Source: an uncultured beta proteobacterium (lineage in GTDB: Bacteria; Pseudomonadota; Gammaproteobacteria; Burkholderiales; Burkholderiaceae_C). Taken from it: a stretch of DNA of 38,630 bases. A model generated the notes under the pieces. It searched no databases, was not told the origin of the DNA, and saw only the letters and a list, made by a program, of their open reading frames with translations. The stretch spans positions 1 to 38,630 of the forward strand of contig CAIYMN010000085.1 in assembly GCA_903927295.1 (NCBI GenBank), given 5' to 3'. Position 1 is the stretch's first letter, and each line of letters starts with the position of its first letter. Positions 2,487 through 23,972 of this stretch are shown here, piece after piece. The translations under genes and the position numbers were made by a program.

Positions 2487-3899
2487 ATGACAGAGGGACA
2501 ATACGCCGGCGAGTCCGGCTTGCGGGGGCGTGGCGCCGGCCAAGACCTCTGGCAGAGTTGCGTCGATCTGCTGGCACAGGAACTCCCTGAACAGCAGTTC
2601 AACACCTGGATAAAACCTCTCTCGGCCGAGGTAGCGATCGACCTGGCCAAAGTCACCATCTTTGTTGCCAACCGGTTCAAACTGGATTGGATCAGGGCAC
2701 AGTACAGCAGTCGGATTGCCAGTCTACTGGGCAAGCTTTCTGGTCAACCAGTTCAACTGGAGTTAGCGCTTGCTCTTCGTGAAAGTGTTGTAAACAAGCA
2801 TTCTATTCAGCGCTTGGTCGAACCTATTGCGATGGAAGAGTCGAACGAGATTGAGGAAGGCCGAAACCCTGGCGGTCTCAAGAACAGGCTCAATACATCG
2901 CTAACCTTCGACACGCTGGTCGAAGGAGCAGCAAACCGAATGGCTCGCGCGGCGGCGATGCACGTGGCTGGAATGCCGGGTCATTTGTACAACCCTCTGT
3001 TTATCTACGGTGGCGTCGGGTTGGGTAAAACCCACTTGATGCATGCCGTGGGCAACCGCCTCTTGGGCGACAGGCCCACAGCCAAGGTTCTCTACATCCA
3101 TGCAGAGCAGTTTGTCTCAGATGTGGTCAAGGCTTATCAGCGCAAGACTTTTGACGAATTCAAGGAACGCTACCATTCGCTTGATCTGCTGCTGATTGAT
3201 GACGTTCAGTTCCTCGCGAACAAGGAGCGCACCCAGGAAGAATTTTTCAACGCATTCGAGGCGCTGCTTGCCAAGAAGTCGCACATTGTCATGACCAGCG
3301 ACACCTATCCCAAGGGTCTCGCGGACATTCATGAGCGGCTGGTGTCGCGATTTGACTCCGGACTGACTGTTGCCATAGAGCCGCCGGAGTTGGAGATGCG
3401 GGTGGCGATCCTGATCAACAAGGCGCGAGTTGAAGGCATTGAGATGCCGGAAGAGGTGGCTTTTTTTGTAGCAAAGAACGTTCGCTCCAACGTGCGCGAA
3501 CTCGAAGGGGCCTTGCGCAAGATTTTGGCCTATTCCCGATTCAACCAAAAGGAGATTTCGATCCTTCTGGCGCGTGAGGCGTTGCGTGATCTGTTGTCCA
3601 TTCAAAATCGACAGATTTCTGTGGAAAACATCCAGAAGACCGTAGCCGACTACTACAAGATCAAGATAGCCGACATGTATTCCAAGAAGCGGCCTGCAAG
3701 CATTGCACGACCACGACAAATTGCAATGTACTTGGCTAAAGAGTTGACACAAAAGAGTCTGCCTGAAATTGGGGAACTATTTGGCGGACGCGATCACACG
3801 ACCGTTTTGCATGCAGTACGCAAGATCGGCGGCGAGCGCCAACAGATGACTGAACTGAACCAGCAACTTCATGTACTGGAACAAACACTTAAGGGATAA
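2487..3899 (+). CDS. dnaA: Chromosomal replication initiator protein DnaA
   Basis: 470 aa; Walker [11 protein letters not shown], Walker [11 protein letters not shown]-terminal [14 protein letters not shown]. Confidence 0.99.
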
Positions 3900-12550: not shown

Positions 12551-12744
12551 ACAACAACTGCGTAGCCTTCTTCGGCAATCGCTTTGGCCAGTCTGTCGCG
12601 AGCGAGTTCTGACTGCACTTCCACCGTGTTGGCGGCGCGGTCGATGGTGACTTCGGCCTTCGGGTCGGTTTGTTTCACTGCGCGCGTGACTGCTTTCTCG
12701 CAATGACCACAAGTCATGCCGCTGACAGTAAATATCTGTTTCAT
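12547..12744 (-). CDS. copZ: Heavy-metal (copper) chaperone
   Basis: 65 aa HMA domain, GMTCGHCEKAVTRAV; overlaps the cueR start by 4 bp. Confidence 0.85.
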   Translation of the reverse strand: MKQIFTVSGMTCGHCEKAVTRAVKQTDPKAEVTIDRAANTVEVQSELARDRLAKAIAEEGYAVVV

Positions 12745-12823: not shown

Positions 12824-12844
12824 ACCTTCCCATGATAGGAGGGT
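12824..12844 (+). promoter_or_regulatory. CueR-type operator/promoter facing copA
   Basis: TTGACCTTCCCATGATAGGAGGGTTTAGGCT; ACCTTCC...GGAGGGT dyad in a 19-bp -35/-10 spacer. Confidence 0.7.
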
Positions 12845-12858
12845 TTAGGCTTAGCCTC

Positions 12859-15117
12859 ATGAACAACCCCACTTCTGCCCCGATTGAGCCGGCTTCGGTC
12901 GATCTTGGAATTGACGGTATGACCTGCGCCTCGTGCGTTGCGCGTGTGGAAAGAGCCTTGAGGAGGGTTCCTGGCGTTCAGGAAGCCACCGTCAACCTGG
13001 CTACCGAATCAGCGCGCATTGTGATCGCTCCCGGCGAAGATATGCCAACCCGGCTACGTCGAGCTGTGCGTGACGCCGGCTACGAGCCGCGAGCCGTCAA
13101 TACTTCGCTATTGGCAGAGCCGAACACACCATGGGCGGGTTTTGCACCGGTCGCAATGGGCCTGGCTTTGTCTTTGCCATTGATGTTGCCCATGGTCGCG
13201 GAACTATTTGGGTGGCATTGGATGCTGCCTGCTTGGCTTCAATTTGCACTGGCCACTCCGGTTCAGTTTATTTTGGGTCGTCATTTTTACCGGGCCGGTT
13301 GGCACTCAGTCAGGGCTCTTTCCGGGAATATGGACTTGCTGGTCTCTATTGGAACGACCGCTGGCTGGGCGCTGTCTGTTTGGTTGTGGATGACAGCCGC
13401 TCGCGGTGCCGTAGTTCATCTGTACTTTGAGGGTTCGGCTTGGGTCATCACTCTGGTGATGTTGGGTAAATGGCTTGAGTTGCGCGCGAAACGACAAACC
13501 ACCTCCGCCATTCGGGCCCTGTATGCGCTGCGCCCGATCGAGGCTCATCTTATCGGACCCGACGGCGAAATTGATGTTCCCGTGGCCGATCTGCTGCTAG
13601 GCGATCGATTGGTGATCAGGCCTGGTGAGAGGATTCCGGTTGATGGAGTGTTGGTAGAAGGGTACACGCAAGTCGATGAGTCGATGCTGACGGGCGAGCC
13701 GCTGCCGGTGGACAAATATCCTTCAGCAGAACCGGCCTCCGCTGCGCATGCAATGCTCACTGGTGGTTCCATCAACGGTGATGGCCGTGTGGTGATGCTG
13801 GTGCGAGCGGTCGGTAGTGAGACCGTGCTCGCTCGCATTATTCGCCTGGTGGAAGACGCGCAGGCAGCCAAGGCGCCGATTCAGCGTTTGGTGGATAAGG
13901 TCAGCGCAATATTTGTTCCGATTGTTTTATTGATTGGTTTGTTGACGCTCTTTGGTTGGTGGTTGTCCGGTCACTCTTTTGAACAAGCCCTGTTAAATAC
14001 CGTTGCGGTACTGGTCATTGCCTGCCCCTGCGCCTTAGGGTTAGCAACTCCCGTAGCCATCATGGCAGGCACGGGCGTTGCTGCACAGCATGGCATTCTG
14101 ATCAAGAATGCTCAGGCGCTGGAACTGGCTCACAAGGTAGACATCATTGCGTTTGACAAGACCGGTACCTTAACATTGGGCCATCCACGGCTGACCTCAA
14201 TATTGCCTGCACAGGGCATCACTGAAAGCGCAATTCTGAAGATTGCAGCCGGTCTGCAAAGTGGCAGTGAACACCCTCTTTCACGCGCTGTTGTGAGACT
14301 TGCGCAGGAGCGTGGTCTGACTTACCAAAATCCCAACAATGTGCGCGCTGTACCAGGTCGCGGCAGTGAAGGTGAACTTGGATCTCGTCATTTTCTGATC
14401 GGAAGTCTGCGTTGGATGAATGAGTTAGGGCTTGATACCAGCGCAATGGAAGGCAAAGCAGTCCATCTTCAGGCGCAAGGCGCCACGGTATCGGTATTAG
14501 CAGAACGAGCCTCACAGGGGTTGTTCCTGTGCGCCCTGCTCACATTCTTTGATGAACCAAAACCTGGTGCGACGGAGGCTTTAGCCGCGTTGCGGGCTCA
14601 GGGCATCAAGACTGTGATGATCTCCGGCGATAACCGGGGTTCTGCCGAAACCATGGCACGCCGACTTGGACTGCGGCCCGAAGATGGTGAAGTTATGTCT
14701 GAAGTATTACCTGGCGAAAAAGCGAAAAGAGTGGCTGCGTTGAAGATCGGTGGTCACGTGGTAGCAATGGTTGGTGACGGCGTCAATGATGCACCTGCGC
14801 TCGCTCTCGCCGATGTTGGTATGGCGATGGGAAACGGTACTGACGTTGCGATGCATGCCGCTGACATCACTCTCATGCGTGGAGATCCTTTGTTGGTAGC
14901 AGCAGCGCTCGACATCTCAAATCGAACCGTCGCCAAGATCAGGCAAAACCTTTTTTGGGCGTTTGCCTACAACATTGCCGGAATTCCGCTAGCGGCCTTT
15001 GGATTCTTGAATCCCGTGATTGCTGGCGCAGCAATGGCAATGAGTTCCATTAGCGTGATGAGCAATGCCTTACTTCTGAAACGCTGGATTCCAAACAAGG
15101 CTGTTTCTTTGAAGTAG
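12859..15117 (+). CDS. copA: Copper-translocating P1B-type ATPase CopA
   Basis: HMA GMTCASC, CPC ([12 protein letters not shown]), [18 protein letters not shown]-terminal [13 protein letters not shown]. Confidence 0.95.
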
Positions 15118-15330
15118 GTATTTAAAGATAGTAGTAGTAGATAGAGGCTTTTGCCTTCTGTGGAAAATAAGAAAATATTTATAAAATTCAATTAGTTAGA
15201 TAACATCAACAGGTGTGGGTGACACTGCTTTCAGGTTGCTACGCTAATCTGAATAACTTCAAGAGTTAAGGATTTGTGTGGATAAGTGGTAACTTATGCG
15301 GGATCTATTCACAGCCTTATTCGCACCCTC
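15118..15330. other. oriC: Candidate oriC: AT-rich gap with DnaA-trio-like run and DnaA boxes
   Basis: TAG x4 (15129-15140), AGGC-TTTT-GCCT hairpin (15145-15156), TGTGGAAAA box (15159-15167), AT-rich tract about 15164-15204, perfect TGTGGATAA box (15277-15285), near-boxes at 15248, 15305 and 15317. Confidence 0.6.
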
Positions 15331-15939
15331 TCATTTGATCAAACCCTCTGCCTTCATCGCTTCAATCACTTTGGGTCTGGCACTGACTCGGCTACGAAAA
15401 GCAAGCAGGTTTGGATAGGCAGATAGGTCAAGACCAACATATTGAGGCCAATTTGTCACCGTAAAAAGGTATCCGTCAGCCACTGTAAAGATGTCGCCCA
15501 TTAGGTAGTGCGTGTTGGCAAGCTCACCTTCCAGCCACTGCAAACGAGAGGCCAGACGTGTCTTGGCCATGTCTCTGGCCTCTTCAGGCATGCCGGGGGT
15601 GAACAAGGGTGAGAAACCCTTGTGCAGTTCTGTCCCGATGAAGGTAAGCCACTCCTGAAGTTTGTAGCGAGCAAAGGTTCCATTACTTGGTGCCAAATTT
15701 TTGGACGGGACTTGATCGGCGATGTATTGAACGATCGCTGGACCTTCACGTAACTGATTGCCATCATCGAGCACGAGAAGGGGTACATAGCCCAGAGGAT
15801 TGATTGCGTAGTAGTCAGTCCCATCGGCTAATTTGTGGGTCTTTGTGGGGGCTGCAATAGCCACAAAGTCCAACCCAGACTCCTTGAGAGCAATGTGTAC
15901 TGACAGTGAGCAAGCACCTGGCGAATAATAGAGTTTCAT
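15331..15939 (-). CDS. Glutathione S-transferase
   Basis: MKLYYSPGACSLSVHIALKESGLDF, GYVPLLVLDDGNQLREGPAIVQYIAD. Confidence 0.92.
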   Translation of the reverse strand: MKLYYSPGACSLSVHIALKESGLDFVAIAAPTKTHKLADGTDYYAINPLGYVPLLVLDDGNQLREGPAIVQYIADQVPSKNLAPSNGTFARYKLQEWLTFIGTELHKGFSPLFTPGMPEEARDMAKTRLASRLQWLEGELANTHYLMGDIFTVADGYLFTVTNWPQYVGLDLSAYPNLLAFRSRVSARPKVIEAMKAEGLIK

Positions 15940-15993
15940 GAACTGTCCTTGATATGAATAAGGTTGGCGTGAATGGTTGCTGCAAGGGCCCAT

Positions 15994-17604: not shown

Positions 17605-17670
17605 AGAGAGCCTTTTAAAAAGAGAGGATGATTTGGTAAGAAAACCAAGTTGACTGGCCGCGAACTTCCC

Positions 17671-17832
17671 CTATAGCGGCCAAATCAGCAATTTCGGAAA
17701 ATCGGCGCGAGGAACGCGATAACTGTGGACTGGGTGTGTGAAGTTGGCGTCGCACTGTGCGGTAAGCGTCGTGTTGAGCTCTTCGCTGATCGTGCTGGCA
17801 GCGCGAGGGTGGTGTGACTGGATATCATTCAT
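17671..17832 (-). CDS. Possible 53-aa ORF of unknown function
   Basis: Minus-strand frame MNDIQSHHPRAASTISEELNTTLTAQCDANFTHPVHSYRVPRADFPKLLIWPL*; below the ORF-track length; weak RBS. Confidence 0.25.
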   Translation of the reverse strand: MNDIQSHHPRAASTISEELNTTLTAQCDANFTHPVHSYRVPRADFPKLLIWPL

Positions 17833-18262
17833 GATTGTGTTTTCTTAAGTTTGCAGTGGGTGGCTGCGACGCTTGTTGCCGCCTTTCCCCTTTGCCGCAA
17901 GACGGAGTCGTGAGCGCAATCCCTAGTGTGATCTCGATCTTGGCCATATTTGACAATTTAGGGTAATCACCGTGGGGAAATAGGGAGCCTTGTCAAACAA
18001 AGAAGCGGTCCCCACAACGATCGAAGGTTGATGAGTTCACTGGCAAACACCAGAACTATAAAAACAATAGCAGCAAAGCCATTATTCGTGGGGTGTTTGG
18101 GTTGTCTGTCACTATTGTCAGCGGCTGGCAGACCGTTCTATTGGACGGCTCAATGTGGCTGCTGGGTGAAATTCGGTGTGCCCGGTAAAATCAGCGAACC
18201 ATCCGCTGGTGTATAGAGCGTTTGACCGGATTTCCGCCGACCACCCAATCCACTAATTAACC

Positions 18263-20284
18263 ATGCTTTATCCACAGAAGTTTGATGTGCTTGTGATTGG
18301 CGGCGGGCATGCTGGCACTGAGGCTGCGCTGGCATCAGCACGCATGGGCTGCAAGACCCTGCTGTTGACCCACAATATTGAGACCCTGGGGCAGATGAGT
18401 TGTAACCCCTCCATTGGCGGCATTGGAAAAGGGCATTTAGTGAAAGAAGTGGATGCCATGGGTGGGGCCATGGCCGCTGCGGCGGACGAAGCCGGTATTC
18501 AATTCCGCATACTCAATTCCAGCAAGGGGCCCGCTGTTCGCGCCACCCGCGCACAGGCAGATCGAGTCTTGTATAAGGCGTCGATCCGTCATCGTCTGGA
18601 GAATCAGCCCAATTTAAGTTTGTTTCAGCAAGCGGCGGATGATTTGATGGTGCAGGGGGGTCGGGTCGTTGGCGCCATCACCCAGTCTGGCATCAAATTC
18701 TTTGCCAGGACGGTCGTGTTGACGGCGGGGACCTTCTTGAATGGGAAGATCCACGTTGGCATGAGCAGTTATGCGGCAGGAAGGGCCGGAGATCCCCCGG
18801 CGCTGCGTCTATCGGACCGGCTCAAAGAGTTGAAATTGCCGCAGGGGCGGTTGAAGACCGGAACGCCACCGCGTCTTGACGGGCGCACGATTGATTTTGG
18901 CAAGTGCGTCGAACAACCTGGCGATGGTATGCCGGGCGGTATGCGAGCGGACACGCCAGTGTTCAGCTTCATGGGGCGCGTTGAACAACACCCTGGGCAG
19001 AGGTCTTGCTGGATTACACATACCAATGAGAACACGCACGAAATTATCCGCAGTGGCTTCGATCGCAGCCCGATGTTCACCGGCAAGATTGAAGGTGTTG
19101 GTCCGCGCTACTGTCCGAGCGTGGAAGACAAGATAGGACGCTTTGCCGACAAGGACAGTCACCAGATTTTCCTCGAGCCAGAGGGGCTGACAACCCACGA
19201 GTATTACCCCAACGGTATTTCGACGAGCCTGCCTTTTGATGTCCAGTACGCGCTGGTACGATCAATGAAGGGACTCGAAGATGCGCATATCTTGCGACCG
19301 GGCTATGCCATCGAATACGACTACTTCGATCCTCAGCAGCTCCTGAGCAATTTCGAGACCAAGGCTTTTGCGGGCTTGTTCTTTGCCGGCCAGATCAATG
19401 GGACTACCGGGTACGAAGAGGCGGCAGCACAAGGACTGTTTGCCGGCGTCAATGCTGCACTACAAGCAGGCGCCAAGACCAACTGGCAAGCTGACCGCTG
19501 GTTGCCTGGGCGGGATGAGGCTTATTTGGGTGTGCTGGTAGACGATCTGATCACCAAAGGGGTGTCTGAACCTTACCGCATGTTCACCAGCCGCGCCGAA
19601 TACAGATTGCAGTTGCGCGAAGACAATGCTGACGCTCGATTGACTGAAGTGGGCCGCCAACTTTGTTTGGTGGATGACCAACGTTGGGATGCATTTTGCC
19701 GCAAGCGGGACGCTGTTTCACGTGAAACAGAGCGGCTCAAGTCGATTTGGGTTGGCCCAGGGAAACTGGCCGACACCGACTCGGAGCGTCTGTTCGGTAA
19801 AGTACTTGAGCACGAGTACAGTTTTGGCGAACTGTTGCGTCGCCCCAATGTGCGTTATCCCGATCTTATGTCTTTGGGTGGCGGGGCTTACGTGAGCCCG
19901 GAGTTGGCTGCGCGCCCGACCAATTCGACGGGACTTGAGCAGTCAGACGATCATGCTTTTGTTGCGACGGTAGTCGACCAAGTGGAAATCGCCGCCAAGT
20001 ACTCGGGCTACATCAATCGCCAGAAGGACGAAGTAGCTCGCTCGGCACACTACGAAAACTTGCGATTGCCACGAGAACTGGACTACATGCAGGTATCTGC
20101 TTTAAGCATTGAAGCTCGCCAAAAACTAAACAAAAACAAGCCGGAAACCCTTGGACAGGCTTCGCGGATTTCCGGTATTACTCCGGCGGCCATCTCTCTT
20201 TTGTTGATCCACTTGAAGAAGAACAATTTTCTGGGGCGTGCAGCAAGCGGCGATTTGCTTGCGCCTGGAGGGGTGTCAGGATGA
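18263..20284 (+). CDS. mnmG: tRNA U34 5-carboxymethylaminomethyl modifying enzyme MnmG (GidA)
   Basis: [46 protein letters not shown]; followed by rsmG. Confidence 0.98.
18268..18276 (+). promoter_or_regulatory. Perfect DnaA box TTATCCACA in mnmG codons 2-5
   Basis: atgctTTATCCACAgaag. Confidence 0.5.
19714..19729. promoter_or_regulatory. parS centromere site (TGTTTCACGTGAAACA, perfect)
   Basis: Exact 16-bp parS palindrome inside mnmG. Confidence 0.97.
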
Positions 20285-20961
20285 TGTTGTCCTTAGAACA
20301 TGAGTTGCGGCGTGGTCTGGCGGAACTCGAGCTGAGCCTTGTGGATGATCAAGTCGGCAAGCTGTTGGAATATCTGAACATGATCCACAAGTGGGCCAAG
20401 ACGTATAACCTGACTTCGGTTCGGGAACCGGCTGGCATGATGACGCATCATTTGCTGGACAGCTTGGCCGTGATTGCGCCGCTGCGCCGCAGGTTGGCAG
20501 ACTTGCCTAGGGCCCAGACAGTGGAGGACCAGGCCGCCGACTGTCCAACACGGGTGCTTGATGTTGGCTCTGGTGCCGGATTGCCGGGAGTTGTAATTGC
20601 AATTTGTTGCCCGGATGTTGTGGTCGATTGCGTCGATGCCGTGGCAAAAAAAGTGGCGTTTATCCGACAGGTGGCGGGCGTTTTGAAACTCACGAACCTG
20701 GGTGGCTTGCACCAACGGGTGCAGGATTTGTCAGGTACTTACCGGGTCGTGAGTTCACGGGCCTTTGCTTCGTTGACCGAATTTGCTCGTTTATCGAGTG
20801 GTCTATTGGCGTCGGACGGGATTTGGTTGGCAATGAAAGGGAGGGTTCCTGATGATGAAATGGCTGCTTTGCCGGGAAACACCCGCGTGTTTCACGTGGA
20901 ACAACTAAAAGTGCCCGGTTTGAGCGCAGATCGGTGTATTGTTTGGATGCACAAGACCTAA
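20281..20961 (+). CDS. rsmG: 16S rRNA m7G methyltransferase RsmG (GidB)
   Basis: [39 protein letters not shown]; overlaps the mnmG stop. Confidence 0.97.
20888..20903. promoter_or_regulatory. Second parS-like site (TGTTTCACGTGGAACA, one change)
   Basis: 15/16 match to parS, near the 3' end of rsmG. Confidence 0.85.
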
Positions 20962-23027: not shown

Positions 23028-23972
23028 ATGATGGTTACCAAAAAACCCAAAGGCTTAGGCCGCGGCCTAGAGGCATTGCTTGGACCTAATGTGAGCGATA
23101 GGGCGGCATTTGATGCCTCTGCCGGTAATCCGGTCAGCCCGGGCCAACCGGCGTCATTGATGCTTACCAACATGCTCCCAGGTACCTACCAGCCGCGCAC
23201 CCGGATGGATGAGGGCGCCCTGTATGAGCTCGCTGAATCCATCAAGGCCCAGGGGATTTTGCAACCGATACTGGTTCGCCAATTAACGGACGGGCCGAAT
23301 CAGGGTAAATACGAAATTATTGCCGGTGAACGCCGCTTTCGCGCTGCCAAACTTGCCGGACTGGACAGTGTGCCCGTGCTGGTGCGAGATGTTCCCAATG
23401 AAGTCGCGGCAGCGATGGCGTTGATCGAGAATATTCAACGAGAAGACCTCAACCCCCTGGAGGAGGCCCAAGGTTTACAACGCCTGGTGAAGGAGTTTGG
23501 GCTCACTCACGAACAGGCTGCGCAGGCCGTAGGCCGTTCGCGCAGCGCTGCCAGCAATTTGCTGCGCCTGCTCAACCTGGCCGAACCGGTACAAGTTATG
23601 TTGATGGCCGGTGACCTCGACATGGGCCACGCACGAGCCCTGCTTGCCCTGGACCGTGCAACACAGATCACGGCGGCGAGCCAGATCAGTGCGCGCAAGA
23701 TGTCGGTTCGGGAGGCCGAAAGCCTGGTAAAGAAGTTCGGCGCCGAGTTCACATTGACTTCGGTCAAGCAAAAGAAAGAGAAGTCTCGTGACATCAAGCG
23801 AGTCGAAGAAGAATTGTCAGACTTGCTCACCGCCGAGGTCGAGGTTCGCGTTAAGAAGCGAGTCAAGCGTGCCGGGCGCATGGAGGAAATTGGAGAAATT
23901 GGCATCCGGTTTTCTTCCCTTGATGAACTCAATGGGTTGATTGAGAAATTGGGACGCACCGCTGCTCATTGA
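23028..23972 (+). CDS. parB: Chromosome partitioning protein ParB/Spo0J
   Basis: KPKGLGRGLEALLG, GTYQPRTRMDEGALYELAESIKAQGILQPILVR, GERRFRAAKLAG, HTH THEQAAQAVGRSRSAASNLLRL. Confidence 0.98.
   Translation: MMVTKKPKGLGRGLEALLGPNVSDRAAFDASAGNPVSPGQPASLMLTNMLPGTYQPRTRMDEGALYELAESIKAQGILQPILVRQLTDGPNQGKYEIIAGERRFRAAKLAGLDSVPVLVRDVPNEVAAAMALIENIQREDLNPLEEAQGLQRLVKEFGLTHEQAAQAVGRSRSAASNLLRLLNLAEPVQVMLMAGDLDMGHARALLALDRATQITAASQISARKMSVREAESLVKKFGAEFTLTSVKQKKEKSRDIKRVEEELSDLLTAEVEVRVKKRVKRAGRMEEIGEIGIRFSSLDELNGLIEKLGRTAAH

Follow-up and report, generated by a model that had tools for sequence, protein, structure and literature searches.

A predicted chromosomal oriC between copA and a glutathione transferase gene pairs E. 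coli-type DnaA-box geometry with a putative DnaA-trio array in a betaproteobacterium

Introduction

Genome annotation often assumes that the chromosomal origin lies at dnaA, and mnmG (gidA) is a classic oriC-linked gene. In Escherichia coli, the unwinding element lies to the left of DnaA box R1 and holds three AT-rich 13-mers (L, M, and R) with TT[A/G]T(T), the motif at which DnaA captures one strand; the array continues through an IHF site (IBS1) and the R5M box to R4, an inverted box at the far end. The Bacillus subtilis basal unwinding system (BUS) consists of DnaA boxes 6/7, a GC spacer, and DnaA-trios. A published search for BUS elements capped the spacer between box and trios at 16 nt, and the DnaA homologues tested in the same work included none from alpha-, beta-, or gammaproteobacteria (PMC8287927). 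Bipartite or double origins, as in Helicobacter pylori, offer a third comparison; putative double oriC are listed in PMC4403523. In the open-access literature searched, we found nothing on oriC in Rhodoferax or Comamonadaceae or on natural oriC duplication, which leaves absence elsewhere unproven.

Here we analyze a 38,630-nt stretch of DNA from an uncultured betaproteobacterium (the window), in which an original prediction had placed the chromosomal origin within the gap between copA and a glutathione transferase gene. On sequence grounds, we predict with high confidence that 15116-15325 is the chromosomal oriC. Such a location would separate the origin from dnaA in an environmental family of betaproteobacteria.

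Results

A conserved element occupies the copA-gst gap

Nowhere in the window are DnaA boxes clustered more densely than in the gap at 15118-15330. The gap had been called strikingly AT-rich, and it bears this out: its GC content is 36%, and no 200-bp windows of the contig are lower in GC than those inside it (34%). The motifs named in the original prediction were all found where it had placed them; to these we add two further elements, resembling an IHF site (15186) and an R5M box (15214; Table 1). The IHF-like site departs from WATCAANNNNTTR at one position, and many relatives carry a perfect site. Box 1 likewise has one mismatch, and a 12-bp GC hairpin sequence, AGGCTTTTGCCT (15145-15156), sits inside the spacer between this box and the TAG repeats. 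These repeats, TAGTAGTAGTAG or (TAG)4, are present in a single copy, at 15129, in the whole 4.1-Mb, 400-contig genome. With this uniqueness, and with its retention across the family, the element is not a chance pattern.

Table 1. Coordinates of the predicted origin, its elements, and neighboring genes in the window
Feature	Coordinates	Strand	Basis or remark
Predicted oriC, whole conserved element	15116-15325	+	R1-model match 15116-15315, plus last box
AT-rich distal part of unwinding element, TATTTAAAGA at 15119-15128	15118-15128	+	sequence; AT-rich across all relatives
Putative DnaA-trio array 5'-TAGTAGTAGTAG-3' (3'-GAT-5' x4, reading away from DnaA box)	15129-15140	+	
18-nt spacer, starts ATAGAGG (ATAAGG in relatives)	15141-15158	+	conserved length
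DnaA box 1, TTTTCCACA, counterpart of E. coli R1	15159-15167	-	alignment to E. coli R1
IHF-site-like ATTCAATTAGTTA, counterpart of E. coli IBS1	15186-15198	+	27 bp from R1 start
R5M-like weak DnaA box TCACCCACA	15214-15222	-	55 bp from R1 start
Partial DnaA box (near-box TCTGAATAA, 15248) within conserved TGAATAACTT	15248-15259	-	TGRAYAACTT nearly invariant
DnaA box 2, perfect TTATCCACA	15277-15285	-	near-invariant among relatives; 118 bp from box 1
DnaA box 3, CTATTCACA, inverted, counterpart of E. coli R4	15305-15313	+	
Weak box TTATTCGCA	15317-15325	+	partly conserved
dnaA, initiator gene	2487-3899	+	Pfam
copA-type P-type ATPase, left neighbor of gap	12832-15117	+	stop at 15117
gstA-type glutathione transferase, right neighbor of gap	15331-15993	-	
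mnmG (gidA)	18263-20284	+	2.9 kb from gap
parS, perfect, TGTTTCACGTGAAACA	19714-19729		
parS, perfect, TGTTTCACGTGGAACA	20888-20903		
parB partition gene	23028-23972	+	TIGR00180

A DNA search with the gap returned 22 same-genus relatives beyond the genome of origin and one more match, in another family. The genus was taken as Rhodoferax, to which most of the named relatives belong. In many of the same-genus matches, similarity begins exactly after the copA stop and spans the gap alone; one relative (G039, locus L004) carries 2.6 kb of other DNA between the end of copA and the element. Alignment of 28 copies gives a fixed order: an AT-rich tract, TAGTAGTAGTAG(A)TAAGG, approximately 12 nt, a DnaA box, the IHF consensus, TGTGGGTGAC, TGRAYAACTT, TGTGGATAA, and an inverted TWTNCACAG. 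The first aligned set was picked for containing TAGTAGTAGTA, so trio invariance within it is circular; less biased checks came from mnmG-anchored loci and from family matches, neither of which was selected for the motif. In these sets the two box-proximal TAGs are kept and distal ones drift (TAGTCGTAGTAG, TAGCAGTAGTAG, and TAGTGGTAGTAG). Conservation peaks at the TAG units adjoining the box, also in sets unselected for TAG. In the alignment of relatives that had been proposed as a check, boxes and box-proximal TAGs are conserved.

A sequence-only model of the element (the R1 model, distinct from the E. coli box R1) scored 122 bits (cmsearch, E 4.4e-37) at 15116-15315, the next best score in the window being 9 bits. 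Within the genus Rhodoferax, 85 of 90 genomes have a match (50 of 51 among those of good quality), as do 294 of 301 genomes and 115 of 115 genera of the family; in the class, matches were found in 99/284 and are mostly weak. The element is retained where its neighbors are dnaA/dnaN, LTXXQ, or other genes. In G038, a complete genome carrying the same genus label, the R1 model finds no more than a weak match, at C1:2005727-2005900, 2 Mb from its dnaA (position 526).

Other gaps considered as the origin were set aside. The one upstream of mnmG (17605-18262) offers a single exact box, which lies inside mnmG, and best R1-model scores of 2-3 bits; the dnaA-dnaN gap has no R1-model match in the window, though in some genera the origin sits there.

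The element combines E. coli geometry with TAG repeats

The annotated E. coli K-12 oriC (NC_000913 3925744-3925975) itself matches the R1 model in register (27.2 bits, E 2.3e-9 for 1 kb). The distances from R1 to the IHF site and from R1 to R5M are identical in the window element and in E. coli, where the IHF position was taken directly from the sequence and is off the simple consensus at two positions. Common to both are also the unwinding element left of R1, the orientation of R1, an inverted R4-type box at the far end, and a nearby mnmG. The two differ in location, the window element lying between copA and gst, and on the unwinding side: none of the three AT-rich 13-mers with TT[A/G]T(T) was found in the window's AT-rich side, and in place of the E. 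coli GATCTNTTNTTTT 13-mers there is (TAG)4, which occupies the position of the R 13-mer. With the E. coli orientation, the trios lie on the same strand that is captured by DnaA in E. coli. No perfect R2 equivalent was identified in the window element, and the gap has two GATC sites, against 1.2 expected and 11 in the compared E. coli stretch, so the dense GATC of SeqA/Dam control was not found.

As in the BUS, the box is followed by 3'-GAT-5' repeats on the same side and strand. Where BUS criteria ask for three or more 3'-NAN-5' trios, on the correct strand and beside a box with at most two mismatches, the element has four TAG units beside a box with one; the box-trio spacer, limited there to 16 bp, is 18 nt here. 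The element is unlike the BUS in having a single box before a spacer of variable sequence, an IHF-type site, and other boxes arranged as in E. coli. The spacer measures 18 nt in most relatives and 17 in a few. The GC hairpin had been proposed as part of the architecture, but among 29 relatives in which a folding spacer was sought, any fold was found in only five, and we rejected the hairpin as a functional spacer because it is not conserved. Of the DnaA-trio architecture originally suggested, then, the TAG reading is backed by conservation, whereas the GC-spacer details borrowed from B. subtilis did not survive, and the geometry is that of E. coli. We conclude that the predicted origin is best described as an E. 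coli-type DnaA-oligomerization region with a putative four-unit DnaA-trio unwinding element.

GC skew in relatives switches at the element

The window's own assembly is in 400 contigs, and the skew data are samples from the genomes of relatives. In a complete Rhodoferax genome (G036; 40 samples of 20 kb), skew passes from negative to positive between 3.17-3.19 and 3.20-3.22 Mb; the two elements map to 3.171 and 3.176 Mb and dnaA to 3.325 Mb, and the opposite switch, at the terminus, is close to 1.1 Mb. The skew check called for by the original prediction, run across complete relatives whose dnaA is 54-154 kb off, found the sign change at the element, not at dnaA, and in two of the genomes (G310 and G377) the sample falling between these two loci has the sign that an origin at the element would produce. 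In four other genera, the expected sign was obtained in 30 of 40 samples (p=0.001) and the wrong sign in 10. These noisy samples support the element as the origin location, without base-pair precision. The cumulative-skew minimum of the window, at 12,625, is closer to the gap (2.5 kb) than to dnaA.

Alternative readings and a possible mode of opening

We place oriC in this gap and not at rpmH-dnaA, in agreement with the original prediction, because conservation across the family is independent of neighboring genes, similarity to E. coli oriC is in register, and skew switches at the element in complete relatives. A DnaA-titrating or reloading site (datA- or DARS-like), with the origin elsewhere, such as at rpmH-dnaA, would also account for boxes accompanied by an IHF site, a pairing that datA and DARS2 share (PMC10380432), and rpmH-dnaA does contain two good boxes. 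Yet that gap receives only 9 bits from the R1 model, and the element has an AT-rich, trio-bearing unwinding side, the E. coli oriC match, a coincident skew switch, and a presence in nearly all family genomes, so that we consider this reading very improbable. Somewhat less remote, though still improbable, is a bipartite origin in which the element and the rpmH-dnaA boxes share initiation. Module duplication is frequent in the family, and in one complete Rhodoferax genome (G010) two full elements, separated by 15 kb, lie immediately upstream of dnaA and near copA, respectively; the window's rpmH-dnaA gap, however, has two boxes only and no trio, and dnaA lies 54-212 kb off in other relatives.

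It is also conceivable, if unlikely, that the element is a true origin whose TAG repeats do not function as trios, with opening proceeding through E. coli ssDUE recruitment only and the repeat otherwise used (for flexibility or by another protein). The spacer exceeds the limit of the BUS search, the DnaA homologues examined in that study leave out the relevant proteobacterial classes (PMC8287927), and the remaining elements are E. coli-like, all of which suits this possibility. Against it, the box-adjacent TAGs are the most conserved even in sets unselected for them, and TT[A/G]T is not enriched in the AT-rich part of relatives, occurring in 23/29 versus 25/29 in shuffles. On the favored trio reading, DnaA would occupy R1 and, on DNA bent by IHF, the internal boxes; a filament anchored at R1 would extend into the TAG repeats and capture the strand as single-stranded 3'-GAT-5' trios, after which the AT-rich side would open and helicase would be loaded. 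We base these steps on work in B. subtilis and E. coli (PMC10380432 and PMC8287927). Since E. coli box/IHF geometry and canonical DnaA-trios on the strand captured in E. coli would meet here, a trio filament and ssDUE recruitment become testable against each other in one origin.

Predicted origin modules are duplicated and may relocate in relatives

About a third of the family genomes (~104/301, by hand count) have at least two R1-model matches. There are two to three modules per chromosome, within ~50 kb; in complete single-contig genomes, copies are 0.3-47 kb apart and occur nowhere else. This resembles bipartite or double origins of the H. pylori kind in that relatives have more than one oriC module per chromosome; unlike those, the modules are complete paralogues, and the window has one. 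Multi-module loci include L109/L110 (G032 C3:283036 and 305517), L157 (G036), L233-L245, and L303-L325. In KJN.1 (G032), two complete modules lie 22.5 kb apart, and box 1 to box 2 is 119 bp in both.

Paralogous modules are 48-79% identical. In tandem pairs of g91, same-position copies from different species score 0.88-0.94, versus 0.63 for the two copies within a genome; for three of the four Rhodoferax pairs, the corresponding values are 0.90-0.98 and 0.76-0.79. The same-position excess is moderate in g116, g112 (one of whose pairs includes a partial copy, L323), and g145, and is not clear in g42 and g57. Because same-position copies across species are more alike than paralogues within a genome, the comparison points to duplications that are old and maintained in most genera compared.

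Another genome (G360) carries one module between dnaA and dnaN and a second upstream of mnmG (loci L230 and L232), which suggests relocation through duplication and loss. The paired modules of G010 (L201/L182) are at C1:4936259 and 14547, and in several other genera a module lies between dnaA and dnaN (L073, L243, L246, L248, L249, and L232). A tentative synthesis, to which we give slightly less than even credence, is that the family origin is a relocatable module of ~200 bp (an E. coli-type box/IHF array plus TAG-trio) that has been repeatedly duplicated, with many species keeping two to three complete modules per chromosome, both initiating, and with the window representing a single-copy state after relocation to copA-gst.

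Neighboring genes and partition sites

Also in favor of an origin here, parB and two perfect parS sites are found 4.4-8 kb from the element. The same holds for the trans-acting factors: the DnaA encoded on the contig keeps residues equivalent to E. coli V211 and R245 (ssDNA binding), R285 (arginine finger), and R399 and D433-H434-T435 (box reading), and an ihfA homologue is present. A short SeqA-like match in the same assembly (G000 C78:3729-3890; 43.8 bits, C-terminal part, one internal stop) could be a fragment or contamination. A perfect DnaA box at 18268-18276 overlaps the start of mnmG (codons for M-L-Y-P-Q) and probably reflects coding constraint; if bound, it would be tied to oriC proximity. 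Many genera have an LTXXQ (CpxP/Spy-like) gene close to the oriC module, frequently accompanied by copA or merR.
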